From Acinetobacter harbinensis (GTDB taxonomy: Bacteria > Pseudomonadota > Gammaproteobacteria > Pseudomonadales > Moraxellaceae), in the NCBI RefSeq assembly GCF_000816495.1, contig NZ_JXBK01000001.1:1927512-1991511 (forward strand): 64,000 nucleotides of DNA, given 5' to 3'. The notes under the pieces were generated by a model. That model had not been told where the DNA came from. It saw only the letters and a program-made list of their open reading frames with translations, and did not search any database. The position numbers were made by a program, and so were the translations under genes. Shown here piece after piece: positions 4,473-26,715 of this stretch (positions are counted from its first letter, which is position 1; the number at the start of each line of letters is the position of its first letter).

Positions 4473-5516
4473 ATGACCTTATTAAAACAATTTCAGATTA
4501 AACACCCTATTTTTTTGGCCCCCATGGCCGGTGTTTCAACACCAGCATTGGCGGCAGAAGTCTCCAATCAAGGTGGCTTAGGCTCGCTTGGTTTAGGCTC
4601 AAGTACTTTACAGGACGCGCGCCAACAAATTTTACAAACACAAGCGCTAACGCAACAGCCCTTTCAAGTAAATTTCTTTTGTCATCAAAGCGCTGCGCTT
4701 GATCAAGACGGCGCAAAGCAGTGGATTGAGTATTTAACCCCACAGTTTGAAAAATATCACGCCACAGCGCCCAGCGAATTAAAATGTATTTATCACAGTT
4801 TTTTAGACAATGACGATTATTTAAATTTGGTACTGGAAACTCGGCCGAAAGCAGTCAGTTTCCACTTTGGTATACCGCATGCCCATCAAATTCAAGCTTT
4901 AAAAGATGCTGGCATCCTGACCATGGTTTCTGCCACCAATTTAACAGAAGCACAAGCAATTGAAGCGGCAGGTATTGATGTCATTATTGCCCAAGGAATT
5001 GAAGCCGGTGGCCATCGTGGGATTTTTAATGCCAGCTTGGATAGCGCACTGATGACCGCTGATTTAGTTCAGTTATTCACTCAGCATTGCAATTTACCCA
5101 TTGTTGCTGCGGGCGGCATCATGGATGGACGACAAGCACAGCGATTAATTAAGCTCGGTGCGGCGGCGGTTCAACTGGGCACTGCATTTGTGCAATGTAA
5201 AAGCTCGAATGCCAATGCAGCTTATCGAAAAGCACTGTTTAATAATCCCATTACCCAAATCAGCAGCAGTATTTCTGGTCGTGCTGCGCGCGGCTTAATC
5301 AATCACTGGCATCTACAAATTGATCAACCTGAACGTCCGACTGTGGCCACTTATCCGTATTGCTATGACTTAGGCAAGCAGCTTAACGCCGCTGCGCTAG
5401 CACAAGGTGATGAGGGTTTTGGCGCATTTTGGGCGGGAAGCAATGTCGTACAAATACGCGACCTAGAAGCAGCAGACTTAATTAATCAATTGGTGTTAGA
5501 GATGACCCAACATTAA
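4473..5516 (+). CDS. Nitronate monooxygenase (2-nitropropane dioxygenase family)
   Basis: FMN-dependent TIM-barrel enzyme of 347 residues that oxidises toxic alkyl nitronates such as propionate 3-nitronate. Family features: an N-terminal APMAGVSTPALAAEVSNQGG phosphate/FMN-binding segment, the catalytic-His motif EAGGHRG near residue 182, and AAGGI followed by GAAAVQLGTAF, which bind the FMN phosphate. A strong AAGGAGA ribosome-binding site lies 9 nt before the ATG. It is monocistronic, with a terminator after it. Native substrate specificity within the family is uncertain. Confidence 0.9.
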   Translation: MTLLKQFQIKHPIFLAPMAGVSTPALAAEVSNQGGLGSLGLGSSTLQDARQQILQTQALTQQPFQVNFFCHQSAALDQDGAKQWIEYLTPQFEKYHATAPSELKCIYHSFLDNDDYLNLVLETRPKAVSFHFGIPHAHQIQALKDAGILTMVSATNLTEAQAIEAAGIDVIIAQGIEAGGHRGIFNASLDSALMTADLVQLFTQHCNLPIVAAGGIMDGRQAQRLIKLGAAAVQLGTAFVQCKSSNANAAYRKALFNNPITQISSSISGRAARGLINHWHLQIDQPERPTVATYPYCYDLGKQLNAAALAQGDEGFGAFWAGSNVVQIRDLEAADLINQLVLEMTQH

Positions 5517-5542
5517 GTATGTATCCATCATGAGAATTTCAT

Positions 5543-5568
5543 AAAAACCTGTGTTGTTGCAGGTTTTT
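5543..5568. terminator. Bidirectional terminator
   Basis: A 9-bp stem AAAAACCTG / CAGGTTTTT with an 8-nt loop gives a T tract on both strands. It lies between the convergent nitronate monooxygenase gene and dusB. Confidence 0.85.
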
Positions 5569-5588
5569 ATAACCGTTTTTTACCGAGG

Positions 5589-6605
5589 TTACAGCACATC
5601 AATTACTTGCGCTTGTACATCACTTAAGATCTGACCTTGGGCCAGTAATTGATCAAAATATGCTTCGACCACTTTAAATTGTTGCGCGGTATTTTCAACT
5701 TGATACATACTTTGGCGAAACTCATTACTTGAACGCAAACCTTTGGTATACCAAGCAATGTGTTTACGTGAAATACGGCAACCGGAATACTCGCCATAAA
5801 ACTCATACAGCTCTAACAAATGCCCCAATAATACTTCTTTTACTTCTAGAATATTCGGTGCAGCCAAATGCTGATTGGTCGCTAAATAATGAGCGATTTC
5901 ACGAAAAATCCATGGTCGGCCTTGGGCAGCACGTCCAATCATCACCGCATCAGCACCCGTATAATCCAGTACATATTTGGCTTTTTCTGGCGTGTCGATA
6001 TCGCCATTGGCAATCACAGGAATGCTTAATAATTGTTTAACTTCTTTAATGAGGTCATAACGTGCGGTATTTAAATACATATCTTCACGCGTACGACCAT
6101 GTAGCGCCAGTGCAGCAATACCTGCCTGCTCTGCGCGCTGTGCCACGCGTAGAATATTTTCATGACCATTTACATAACCCAGCCGTGTTTTCAAGGTGAC
6201 CGGCACATTGACTGCGGCCACCACCGTATCCAAAATACGCGCCACCAAATCTTCATCTTTTAACAATGCAGAGCCCGCCAATTTATTACAGACTTTTTTG
6301 GCTGGACAGCCCATATTGATATCAACAATTTGTGCGCCATTCGCTACTTGATAACGCGCGGCTTCTGCAAGCTCTAAAGGATCAGAGCCCGCAATTTGTG
6401 CAGAAATGGGGGCAAGTTCACCATCAAAATTGGCGCGATATAAACTCTTTTTACTCATGCGTAATGTTTGGTCTGAAGTCATCATTTCACTGACCGCATG
6501 ACCTGCACCAAAGTACTTACACAACGTCCGAAATGGACGATCCGTAACACCTGCCATGGGCGCAACAATTAAATTATTCGACAGCTGATATGGACCAATA
6601 TACAT
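5589..6605 (-). CDS. dusB: tRNA-dihydrouridine synthase B
   Basis: FMN- and NADPH-dependent enzyme reducing a specific uridine in the tRNA D-loop to dihydrouridine. The 338-residue protein opens with the FMN-binding APMAGVTDRPFR and carries DINMGCPAKKV, which contains the active-site Cys and is typical of the DusB subgroup. ANGDI and GADAVMIGRAAQGRPW follow in the barrel, with a C-terminal helical tRNA-binding domain. In enterobacteria dusB precedes fis; here no fis follows and a terminator closes the gene directly. The ATG at 6605 matches the usual family start (M-x-I-G-x-Y-Q-L). Confidence 0.95.
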   Translation of the reverse strand: MYIGPYQLSNNLIVAPMAGVTDRPFRTLCKYFGAGHAVSEMMTSDQTLRMSKKSLYRANFDGELAPISAQIAGSDPLELAEAARYQVANGAQIVDINMGCPAKKVCNKLAGSALLKDEDLVARILDTVVAAVNVPVTLKTRLGYVNGHENILRVAQRAEQAGIAALALHGRTREDMYLNTARYDLIKEVKQLLSIPVIANGDIDTPEKAKYVLDYTGADAVMIGRAAQGRPWIFREIAHYLATNQHLAAPNILEVKEVLLGHLLELYEFYGEYSGCRISRKHIAWYTKGLRSSNEFRQSMYQVENTAQQFKVVEAYFDQLLAQGQILSDVQAQVIDVL

Positions 6606-23626: not shown

Positions 23627-25090
23627 ATGATGGTCGAAGTTGAGTTAAAATTTCAGATTCCTGAAGCACGACGTAATGCGTTACTCAAAGCATTAGATGC
23701 TAAAAAATCGCAAATCATCCCACTTAAAGCAAAATATTATGATACGCAAGACGGTCTACTTTCGCAGCACGGCGTGGCTTTACGACAACGTCTTGAAGGT
23801 ACGCGTTGGGTTCAAACCTTAAAAGCTGCCGGCAAAAGCCATGTACATCGCTTTGAACATAATTATGATTTAGGCGAACTTGAAGATGCACCGGAACTGG
23901 ATTTAATCATTTACACAGAGCATGCTGAAGCAGAGCAGATTTTAAAGCACGCCTTAGGCGACTCACACGCCGAACTGAAACTACAATTTGAGACGGATAT
24001 TCAACGTACTTTTCGCGTGATGCACTTTGAAGACACAGAGATTGAAGTCAGTTTAGATGTCGGTGAAGTACGCACTGCAACTGCCCAGCATGCCATGCAT
24101 GAAGTCGAATTTGAACTTAAAAGCGGTTCGGTACACTCTCTTTTGGCTTTTAGTTTTGAATGGGTGAAAAAATATCAATTGTGGTTAGATGTGCGTAGTA
24201 AGGCTGAAATAGGTCATCTGCTGGCGCGTCAGCAAACTGTCAGTCCTGCAAGCATGTGCAAAGAATTTACTTTAAGCAAGAAAGATGCGGCCAATAAAAA
24301 CTTACGTCTACTGATTGCGCAACAACTGCAACATTTATTGCCTAATATTGCGGCTATTTCTGCACAGGTCGCAGAAAAAGAACACATTCAACAAGCACAA
24401 CTGGCGTTGGAGCATCTACATTTAACGCTATTGTTGTTTAAAGACTGGAACGCTGCGATTGCAGATAAATGGGCCATGCAAATTGGCGCCTTTAAACAGC
24501 AGTTTGAGCATTTGCAGCACTTAGAGCATATGCAAAATACTTTGGGTAAATTTTTACAAAATCCCAATACCGCAGCGAATCTCAGTAGAGACATCTTATA
24601 TGCCAAAGAAAAGTTATCTCACTTGGTTCGCTCTACGCAAAACGTGCATCATTATTTAGAATTATTGATGTTTAGTTTAGCGCAAGACGATGCCGCTCAA
24701 ACACATGACCTAAAGTGGTTTGCCCAAAATACATTGCAAAATCAGTATAAAAAACTGCAAGACAGCTTAGTGGCAGCAGAGATTACTGACTTTGAAAGTT
24801 TAGATAAATTAGCCAGTAACATTCATGAATTAAAATTTAGCTTTGCTATTTTAACCTCCATTTATGATGTGAAAAATTTGCAAAAATACAGTAAGGCTTT
24901 AAATGATGCACAACTTGCGGCCAGTGAGTATCAAATCCTTGCATCTTCGGCCAACTATATTCAGCAAACTGAACTTGAAGCCAGTGACTGGTTTGTATTG
25001 GGTTGGCTGACGGCCAAGCAAGAAGTCTATGCACAAAGTTTACGAGAAGCGACTGAACAATTTTTAGTGAGCCGAAAATTCATTAAATAA
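23627..25090 (+). CDS. CYTH-domain protein with a decayed CHAD domain
   Basis: A 487-residue relative of E. coli YgiF (inorganic triphosphatase). The N-terminal CYTH domain (residues ~1-200) keeps the signature EVELKF, KYYDT, LRQRL, QTLK and EVSLD that lines the triphosphate tunnel. The C-terminal half aligns by position with the CHAD domain of the next gene, but the basic CHAD motifs are gone: where the paralogue has HQTRVAIRRL this one has QQAQLALEHL, and where it has RKRVKRLRY this one has HELKFSFAI. CHAD domains bind polyphosphate through these His/Arg/Lys residues, so this copy has probably lost that. An ATG three nt into the gene is an alternative start. Confidence 0.85.
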   Translation: MMVEVELKFQIPEARRNALLKALDAKKSQIIPLKAKYYDTQDGLLSQHGVALRQRLEGTRWVQTLKAAGKSHVHRFEHNYDLGELEDAPELDLIIYTEHAEAEQILKHALGDSHAELKLQFETDIQRTFRVMHFEDTEIEVSLDVGEVRTATAQHAMHEVEFELKSGSVHSLLAFSFEWVKKYQLWLDVRSKAEIGHLLARQQTVSPASMCKEFTLSKKDAANKNLRLLIAQQLQHLLPNIAAISAQVAEKEHIQQAQLALEHLHLTLLLFKDWNAAIADKWAMQIGAFKQQFEHLQHLEHMQNTLGKFLQNPNTAANLSRDILYAKEKLSHLVRSTQNVHHYLELLMFSLAQDDAAQTHDLKWFAQNTLQNQYKKLQDSLVAAEITDFESLDKLASNIHELKFSFAILTSIYDVKNLQKYSKALNDAQLAASEYQILASSANYIQQTELEASDWFVLGWLTAKQEVYAQSLREATEQFLVSRKFIK

Positions 25091-25099
25091 TAGAGACTA

Positions 25100-25174
25100 T
25101 TGTAAGCATAAAGCGTATTGCCTGACATTGACGACTGCACAAAATGATCGCGGCTCTACGCTTTATGCTTACAA
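25100..25174. repeat. 75-bp inverted-repeat structure between the CYTH genes
   Basis: Perfect 18-nt arms starting TTGTAAGCATAAAG at 25100-25117 and ending its complement at 25157-25174 enclose a 39-nt spacer. It starts 9 nt after the first CYTH gene's stop. There is no following T tract of terminator type, although TTTTTTT occurs about 14 nt later. It may be an RNA processing or attenuation structure, or a short repetitive element. Confidence 0.6.
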
Positions 25175-25254
25175 GCCAACACTGCCCTTTTTTAAGCGCT
25201 CGTTTACAATCAAACTCATAATAACAGCGGCGTAAAAGTTGCAGGAGTTTAAGC

Positions 25255-26715
25255 ATGAACGAAATAGAATTAAAATTTCAGATTCCCCTTACTGAGCAAA
25301 AAAGACTGTATCAATGGTTTTTGTCTAAAAATGCCCGCTCTGTTGCTTTGTATGCAAAATACTATGACACGCCCGAGCGACATTTAGCCCAACAGCACAT
25401 ATGCTTGCGCCAACGTTTGCAGGGTAAAACGTGGATTCAAACCTTAAAGGCTCCAAGTCAGCATCAACTAAAACGTTTTGAATTAGAAATTAATTTGGGT
25501 GAGCTAGATAATCCGGCATTAGATTTAAACATTTATCACGCGCATCCCAAAGCCCAAAAAATACTTAAACACAGCCTAGCCAAGCAAGCCAAAAACTTGA
25601 CGGTACACTTTGAAACTGAAGTGAATCGCTTGGTGCATTTGGTTCAGTATAAACAAGCAGAAATTGAGATAAGTTTAGATCGCGGTGAGATTCGGCAAGA
25701 TCTGCGCAGCCTAGCCATTTATGAAATTGAATTTGAGCTAAAACAAGGTTCTGTACACCAACTGATTGAATTTATTCAGCCGTGGATCAAAGAATATCAA
25801 TTGTGGCTCGATGTTCGAAGTAAAGCACAGCGCGGAGATGCGTTGGCACAGGATTTAGACGTATCCGCCGTGCAATTTGCCATGCCACTGTATTTAAAGC
25901 AGCAAGATTCAAGCGCTACGGCTTTTAAAAAAATGCTGAATAATGCGCTACAACATCTACTGCCCAATGCTACAGCGCTGGCGGCCAAGCAGTATAATAG
26001 CGAGCATATTCATCAGACCCGTGTTGCCATTCGACGCTTAACAACGATCTTGCGCACTTTTACTGAGGAGGCAAAGGCTGTAGATGCCAACTGGCAAGCT
26101 CAGCTAAAGACCCTGTTTCGTCAGCTGAGTTCAACTCGTGATCGTGATGCTTTAACTGAAAGTCTATTGCCAAAACTGCTTGCGGCAGGTGCGCCTTATG
26201 TTGAGTTCCCCCAAATTGCTGAACCACAGGCGGTGGTAATTGAAGATATTTTTCGCACTGTAGACACGGTGAATCTTATGTTGGCTTTATTGCAATTCGT
26301 GCATCAGCCGGCTGAAAAATCCAAAAAACCAATATTTAAAAAACAACTCAGCAAAAAATTACAGACATTACATCGGCAAATTTGTACCGATGCCGCGCAC
26401 TTTTTAGAATTAGATGATGCATCACGACATCGCACACGTAAACGAGTCAAACGCTTACGTTATGTGGTGGAATTGCTGGCTGCGCTTTATACAGCAAAAC
26501 AGGTCAAACAGTATTTAAAAGCCTTAAAAGTCGTACAAGAAAATTTGGGAGAATATAACGACTTAATCGTGGCTGAAACGCTGTTTCAAAGTATTGTGCA
26601 ACGTAAACAGAAAGTTTGGTTTATCTTAGGTTGGATTGCCAATGAGAAAACCTATGTTTTGCAACAGGCACAGCTACATTTAGCCAAGTTGTCTAAAACC
26701 AAGACGTTTTGGTAA
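25255..26715 (+). CDS. CYTH-CHAD protein (YgiF-like)
   Basis: A 486-residue protein with an N-terminal CYTH triphosphatase domain (signature EIELKF at residues 3-8, KYYDT, LRQRL, QTLK, EISLD) and an intact C-terminal CHAD domain from about residue 220. CHAD signatures are HQTRVAIRRL at 253-262, STRDRDAL, and HRTRKRVKRLRY near 400. CYTH proteins of this type hydrolyse tripolyphosphate, and CHAD domains bind polyphosphate. It is a tandem paralogue of the preceding gene with the same layout and length, separated by 164 nt that include the inverted repeat; a GCAGGAG precedes the ATG. Confidence 0.9.
   Translation: MNEIELKFQIPLTEQKRLYQWFLSKNARSVALYAKYYDTPERHLAQQHICLRQRLQGKTWIQTLKAPSQHQLKRFELEINLGELDNPALDLNIYHAHPKAQKILKHSLAKQAKNLTVHFETEVNRLVHLVQYKQAEIEISLDRGEIRQDLRSLAIYEIEFELKQGSVHQLIEFIQPWIKEYQLWLDVRSKAQRGDALAQDLDVSAVQFAMPLYLKQQDSSATAFKKMLNNALQHLLPNATALAAKQYNSEHIHQTRVAIRRLTTILRTFTEEAKAVDANWQAQLKTLFRQLSSTRDRDALTESLLPKLLAAGAPYVEFPQIAEPQAVVIEDIFRTVDTVNLMLALLQFVHQPAEKSKKPIFKKQLSKKLQTLHRQICTDAAHFLELDDASRHRTRKRVKRLRYVVELLAALYTAKQVKQYLKALKVVQENLGEYNDLIVAETLFQSIVQRKQKVWFILGWIANEKTYVLQQAQLHLAKLSKTKTFW

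Follow-up and report, generated by a model that had tools for sequence, protein, structure and literature searches.

Our analysis concerns two adjacent open reading frames of Acinetobacter harbinensis that lie within a stretch of 64,000 nucleotides (nt) of contig NZ_JXBK01000001.1 (positions 1,927,512 to 1,991,511 of the forward strand; hereafter the window). The two frames, both on the + strand, encode proteins of 487 and 486 amino acids (aa), here named A and B, each composed of an N-terminal CYTH part and a C-terminal part that is, or derives from, a CHAD domain. Our reference protein of this layout is E. coli YgiF, which according to the available text of PMC6537752 hydrolyses tripolyphosphate and carries a CHAD domain that binds polyphosphate (polyP) and stimulates the enzyme. 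The features on which the comparison of A and B depends are the following, in window coordinates.

23627..25090, + strand: gene A; CYTH domain at aa 1-203 with intact tunnel core, followed at aa ~205-487 by a remodelled, non-basic domain of predicted CHAD fold
25255..26715, + strand: gene B; CYTH domain (tunnel core intact in the window genome) and intact basic CHAD domain
23636..23650, + strand: EVELK, the CYTH signature of A (E4, E6 and K8, present in 76/76 A rows of the alignment described below)
24389..24418, + strand: QQAQLALEHL, A255-264, counterpart in A of the first CHAD polyP motif; B H253/R256/R260 are lost
24824..24850, + strand: HELKFSFAI, A400-408, counterpart in A of the second CHAD polyP motif; B R402/Y403 are replaced by K403/F404
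26011..26040, + strand: HQTRVAIRRL, B253-262, first CHAD polyP motif (H253, R256, R260, equivalent to CtCHAD H253/R256/R260; PMC6537752)
26428..26463, + strand: HRTRKRVKRLRY, B392-403, second CHAD polyP motif (R402, Y403, equivalent by alignment to CtCHAD R418/Y419)

A tandem pair of CYTH-CHAD homologues

A and B share 33% identity over 481 aa, nearly their full length (E=4e-79), and their CHAD-derived parts still match each other when compared alone (E=3e-15). Identical residues occupy 95/202 positions of the CYTH part and 57/282 of the CHAD part. The Pfam CYTH model scores over its cut-off in both proteins (65.9 bits in A, against a cut-off of 23.2), and Pfam CHAD does so in B (129.6 bits), which is the one Pfam CHAD locus found in the window genome; in A, no Pfam CHAD match was obtained at E<=10. 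A preliminary description of the locus, drawn from the sequence alone, had reported two adjacent genes of 487 and 486 codons with the same layout, an ExExK CYTH signature in each, and CHAD motifs that are intact in B and read QQAQLALEHL and HELKFSFAI in A. These observations were all borne out: the reading frames and their homology were confirmed, the signatures are EVELK at A4 and EIELK at B3, and the alignment puts the two pairs of motifs at matching places.

Retention of tunnel and polyP-binding residues across the genus

In order to follow the two domains separately, we aligned 189 protein sequences and kept one row per genome, which left 74 A, 57 B, 20 single-copy C-type, 10 X1 and 3 X2 proteins as well as 20 from other Moraxellaceae (counts of 76 A refer to alignment rows, before genome repeats were removed). 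Two sets of residues were placed by alignment and scored. The tunnel set consisted of the equivalents of YgiF E4, E6, R56, K69, E160 and E162 (available text of PMC4641920), the last two of which correspond to B E159 and E161. The CHAD set consisted of the equivalents of CtCHAD H253, R256, R260, R296, R418 and Y419, residues at which mutations weaken polyP binding or abolish it, according to the available text of PMC6537752.

The complete tunnel set is present in 74/74 A proteins, all of which have 0-2 of the six CHAD residues, and 64 of them none. The substitutes seen in the window are themselves conserved, K403 and F404 each occurring in 75/76 A rows. In B the CHAD set is complete in 56/57 proteins and reaches 5/6 in the remaining one; the tunnel set is complete in 49 and reduced to 0-3 residues in 8, the B of A. 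gerneri (L085) among them. Both sets are complete in all 20 single-copy C proteins. Every X1 protein (10/10) has six tunnel residues and 0-1 CHAD residues, every X2 protein (3/3) has three tunnel residues and all six CHAD residues, and the other Moraxellaceae keep the tunnel set in 20/20 cases, with a complete CHAD set in 12 and 3-5 of its residues in 8. An alternative placement of one glutamate, scored over all rows, gave the same picture. The window's own B lies outside the eight eroded B rows, since all six tunnel residues and the CHAD motifs are present in it; judged by both residue sets, it has what would be expected in sequence of a YgiF-like CYTH-CHAD tripolyphosphatase.

Erosion of the tunnel needs six changes on the tree of the CHAD part (86 rows), and every row with an eroded tunnel belongs to B or X2. 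Among the residues affected is B E159, the equivalent of YgiF E160, which the available text of PMC4641920 describes as invariant; it is replaced by lysine or arginine in X2 and in loci L045, L068/L096 and L073/L074, at four separate places in the tree. The pattern in our sample is asymmetric: CHAD residues disappear whether or not a partner exists, tunnel residues only in the presence of another copy whose tunnel is intact. One X1-type gene, at L140 (genome G049, 5350-6202), is an open frame of only 284 codons from which most of the CHAD-derived part is gone and in which the tunnel residues are present.

The C-terminal domain of A under selection

The preliminary description had regarded the CHAD domain of A as decayed. 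Ratios of nonsynonymous to synonymous substitution rates (dN/dS), calculated by the Nei-Gojobori method as medians of 43 unsaturated and non-independent pairs, gave 0.040 for the CHAD part of A, against 0.082 for its CYTH part, and 0.072 and 0.089 for the CYTH and CHAD parts of B. Over 451 pairs the median dN was 0.16/0.17 for A as compared with 0.49/0.42 for B. Of the two copies it is A that changes slowly, B diverging 2.5-3 times faster. With such low dN and dN/dS, the supposedly decayed gene is in fact the conserved one. Residues shared by at least 97% of the A proteins occupy 106/284 positions of the CHAD-derived part and 74/203 of the CYTH part, and at 43 CHAD-part positions the residue that is near-invariant in A by this threshold occurs in <10% of B and C. 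The A-specific near-invariant residues include K281, H301, H342, D454, K464, E466 and, at the C-terminus, S482, R483, K484 and K487. The dN/dS of the CHAD part and its 106 near-invariant positions rule out a decay of A towards loss, and by these measures the C-terminal domain of A is remodelled and under strong purifying selection, not decayed.

What the remodelling has removed is the basic character of the domain. Net charge in the CHAD part averages -6.5 for A (range -10 to -3), +6.7 for B (-6 to +18) and +4.1 for C (-6 to +14), the values in the window being -3 for A and +18 for B, and lysine plus arginine make up on average 8.9% of the CHAD part in A vs 13.3% in B. The AlphaFold model of A has a mean predicted local distance difference test score (pLDDT) of 89.4 and a predicted template modelling score (pTM) of 0.88. 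Its best fold match is YgiF (5a60; Z 27.8, root-mean-square deviation (rmsd) 4.5, 411 residues), which is also the best match of the B model (Z 30.1), and its C-terminus matches RcCHAD (6qv5) with Z 24.8 and rmsd 3.0 over 278 residues. A is therefore predicted to retain the CHAD fold, made up of two four-helix bundles, while the polyP-binding face is gone.

Distribution and history of the pair

The family was surveyed in a census of 99 Acinetobacter genomes, in which A+B denotes A accompanied by another homologue no more than about 2.3 kb away on its contig and strand, and C-type denotes identity of 35-40% to A combined with a CHAD match. The census comprised 46 genomes with A+B, 9 with A only, 32 with a single C-type gene, 7 with X1 (2 of them also with X2 elsewhere) and 5 with none. 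Pfam CYTH was found in 94/99 genomes, that is, in all that have the family; only one CYTH passes in two of the 46 A+B genomes (G019 and G072) and in both X1+X2 genomes. Pfam CHAD was found in 80/99, at one locus each; these loci are B, C or X2 genes, and none is an A or X1 gene. Polyphosphate kinase is encoded in 98/99 genomes, including all 14 that have A or X1 and lack a CHAD match, which rules out the absence of polyP synthesis as the cause of CHAD loss. Many of the genomes have two or three polyphosphate kinase loci, and one match (G075) lies inside a reported open frame of 11336 aa, perhaps an artefact of assembly or masking.

Among 293 genomes of the order, two matches were found only in the window's own genome, and in the family search the two or three matches in each of 12 genomes of another genus (g9) turned out to be fragments of a single gene; as far as these samples go, the pair is thus confined to Acinetobacter. 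Eight loci of genus g9 (L181-L186, L188 and L189) hold a single-copy CYTH-CHAD gene in which the CHAD polyP residues are partly eroded and the tunnel core is intact. One locus with A+B (L099, NZ_JADVOP010000051.1) is titled A. baumannii; in the CHAD-part tree its B stands with the A. guillouiae B, and the name may be wrong.

A single chromosomal site is common to A+B, A alone, X1 (10/10 loci) and C (17/20 loci). Its neighbouring genes, which we take from reading their sequences to be hemL, thiE, mpo1, orf210 and a DUF3144 gene, are shared, with rearrangement or truncation at contig ends in some A loci. Other sites hold X2 and three of the C genes (L153, L166 and L167).

Trees were built from part of the 189 rows (89, and 80 after dropping six long B and three family rows), from 88 and then 86 B, C, X2 and outgroup rows for the CHAD part, and from three genes for the species (88 rows with a long enough hemL). 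The A, B, C and X rows group together to the exclusion of the other Moraxellaceae, with starred support of 100 in the 89-row tree, which places the duplication inside or at the stem of Acinetobacter. Acquisition of A by distant transfer finds no support, given this single branch and the restriction, within the order, of two matches to the window genome. Across the genus our results uphold the duplication suggested by the preliminary description and the disappearance, from one copy, of those residues known to bind polyP. That description had also named as refuting evidence a decay shared by a whole ancient family that lacks any second copy, and half of this holds: the loss does prove general to an old orthologous family, but a second copy is usually, though not invariably, present.

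In the species tree the nearest row to the window genome is A. kyonggiensis. The X1 genomes join nine A rows with starred support of 97; three of these rows are A-only and six are A+B, the latter of the guillouiae kind, with one genome represented twice. The majority of C genomes have an early position that lacks starred support, and two (G273 and G045, with the gene at another site) adjoin the main A+B group. The A-only states require 8 changes on this tree, at least 3 of them on starred branches, and would represent repeated loss of B, the tree itself not separating gain from loss. The simplest reading of the whole would be one old duplication, with X1 a diverged A and X2 a relocated B; two duplications are possible.

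A probable division of labour between the two copies, and its alternatives

We consider it probable that a YgiF-like enzyme was duplicated early in Acinetobacter and that its domains then divided the labour, one-sidedly in the window and reciprocally elsewhere. The ancestor would have been a single enzyme whose CYTH tunnel hydrolysed tripolyphosphate and whose CHAD domain bound polyP, and a tandem duplication would have allowed the two functions to separate. A would have become a free tripolyphosphatase, with its tunnel kept and its polyP-binding face lost, and its CHAD fold would have been turned into a structural or regulatory domain that does not act on polyP and is tightly held by selection, candidate roles being a lid of the tunnel or a new binding site. 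B would be the polyP-bound copy, whose tunnel residues are still present in most species, the window's included, and have been eroded in at least six lineages (X2 counted), apparently leaving a pure polyP-binding protein. We infer that A hydrolyses inorganic tripolyphosphate (PPPi) without binding polyP, that B is a polyP binder, and that the two may occupy different places in the cell. More tentatively, and at somewhat less than even chances, we suggest that A gave up polyP binding as its CHAD fold took on a new function under strong selection and that its twin repeatedly became a polyP binder with a dead tunnel, which would make the genus a natural series from bifunctional enzyme to free enzyme plus granule-bound protein.

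Several observations weigh against this interpretation. The window's B and most others (49/57) keep all six tunnel residues, and the CYTH part of B has a dN/dS of 0.072, so that in most species, and in the window, the split is one-sided. Among the single-copy relatives of the family, 8/20 have fewer than six CHAD residues, which means that loss of polyP residues needs no partner. Some B and C CHAD parts are net negative themselves, down to -6. The unchanged growth, biofilm and cAMP of an A. baumannii mutant without CavB, discussed below, also count against it. The model of A was built on an alignment of 40 sequences, 14 of which are B; the six tunnel changes were counted on a quick tree with several long branches; and in the 80-row tree none of the groupings A+X1, B+C+X2 and A+B is rejected as a single clade (approximately unbiased test, p-AU 0.30, 0.46 and 0.46).

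The 43 A-specific near-invariant positions, some of them charged or polar, and the dN/dS of 0.04 would also be expected if the CHAD-derived domain of A had gained a new ligand or protein partner, with the loss of polyP binding a mere by-product. We regard such neofunctionalisation as rather unlikely: strong constraint may also arise from the way the domain packs against the tunnel, and the proposal overlaps with the division of labour set out above, from which it differs mainly in emphasis. The preliminary description had instead seen in A a possible regulator or heterodimer partner of B. The proximity of a second homologue in 46/55 A genomes of the census and the complementary domain states of some species speak for a partnership, which we nevertheless consider improbable. 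B is missing from the fetched stretch, in some cases a short one, at 17/74 A loci, and the nine A-only genomes of the census were searched whole. These A genes show no relaxation, the ratio of CHAD-part to CYTH divergence in A being 0.995 without B and 0.993 with it (p 0.59), and A-only genes depart from the A pattern at no more than 3/32 A-specific positions checked, one of which is an oddity of the window's own A. Nor are the genes ever less than 74 nt apart: the gap is 74-2253 nt among 57 pairs (one genome entered twice and the window's own 164 nt left out), and at 4 loci an opposite-strand gene stands between them. The regulatory role gained no support, because the six core tunnel residues are kept in all 74 A genomes.

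It is also conceivable that nothing has changed and that A still binds polyP through other residues, since its fold is predicted to be kept and a histidine of the motif region (A H253, equivalent to B H251) occurs in 76/76 A rows. This we hold to be very improbable, as the CHAD part is net negative in all 74 A proteins, its content of lysine plus arginine is well below that of B, and every A has at most two of the six residues tested by mutation in CtCHAD.

Apart from the binding of polyP, little is known of what CHAD contributes to CYTH-CHAD enzymes. Acinetobacter offers a natural experiment, with species in which the two functions are joined, seemingly split, or in which the polyP function is seemingly lost despite the presence of polyphosphate kinase; this series allows tests of how a tripolyphosphatase profits from polyP binding and of what else the CHAD fold does. 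The case of A is also a caution: Pfam may fail to see a domain that is predicted to fold well and is strongly selected.

Comparison with known proteins

A and the window's B resemble E. coli YgiF (5a60) in their two-domain layout and in keeping the six tunnel residues. The locus differs from it in that A lacks the CHAD polyP residues and the basic charge, and in that two copies stand side by side. The C-terminus of A has the same predicted fold as CtCHAD (6qv7/6qva) and RcCHAD (6qv5), with Z 23.2-24.8, and B has the polyP residues as well; unlike CtCHAD, A is without those residues at which mutation reduces or eliminates the binding of polyP. A further CHAD-fold match to both models is PptA of Streptomyces (6rn5; Z 17.8 and 18.9).

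Within the genus, layout and length are shared with CavB (ABUW_1085) of A. baumannii, a CYTH-CHAD protein of 487 aa annotated as adenylate cyclase, which judging by layout and length alone probably belongs to the single-copy C type. According to the available text of PMC11410210, deletion of cavB left growth, biofilm and cyclic AMP (cAMP) unchanged. A reading of the family as class IV adenylate cyclases accordingly finds no support in that text. CavB differs from A and B in having been tested by deletion, no comparable test of either having been found in the portions of the literature consulted; as judged by titles and the openings of abstracts, no publication on the A/B pair was found in the open PubMed Central literature.

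The spacer between A and B

The two genes are separated in the window by a spacer with an inverted repeat.

25091..25254, + strand: A-B spacer, 164 nt, containing the inverted repeat 25100-25122 / 25152-25174

The repeat (25100-25174) has 23-nt arms that are 91% complementary and is predicted to form a strong RNA hairpin, the folding of the spacer RNA having a z of -4.5. Its 18-nt core has a single site in the window genome, with two mismatches allowed, and the repeat was not found in the corresponding spacers of four relatives in which it was sought. A promoter or terminator in the spacer found no support, as a consensus scan of the region gave fewer sites than shuffled sequences did. Translational coupling of A and B is likewise unsupported, given gaps of 74-2253 nt. 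In the four interrupted pairs among the 57 (L059, L075, L086 and L144) the gap amounts to 1.9-2.3 kb, and the inserted opposite-strand gene, which by eye resembles an ABC transporter gene and which we presume to be one, is broken into two reading frames at L086.

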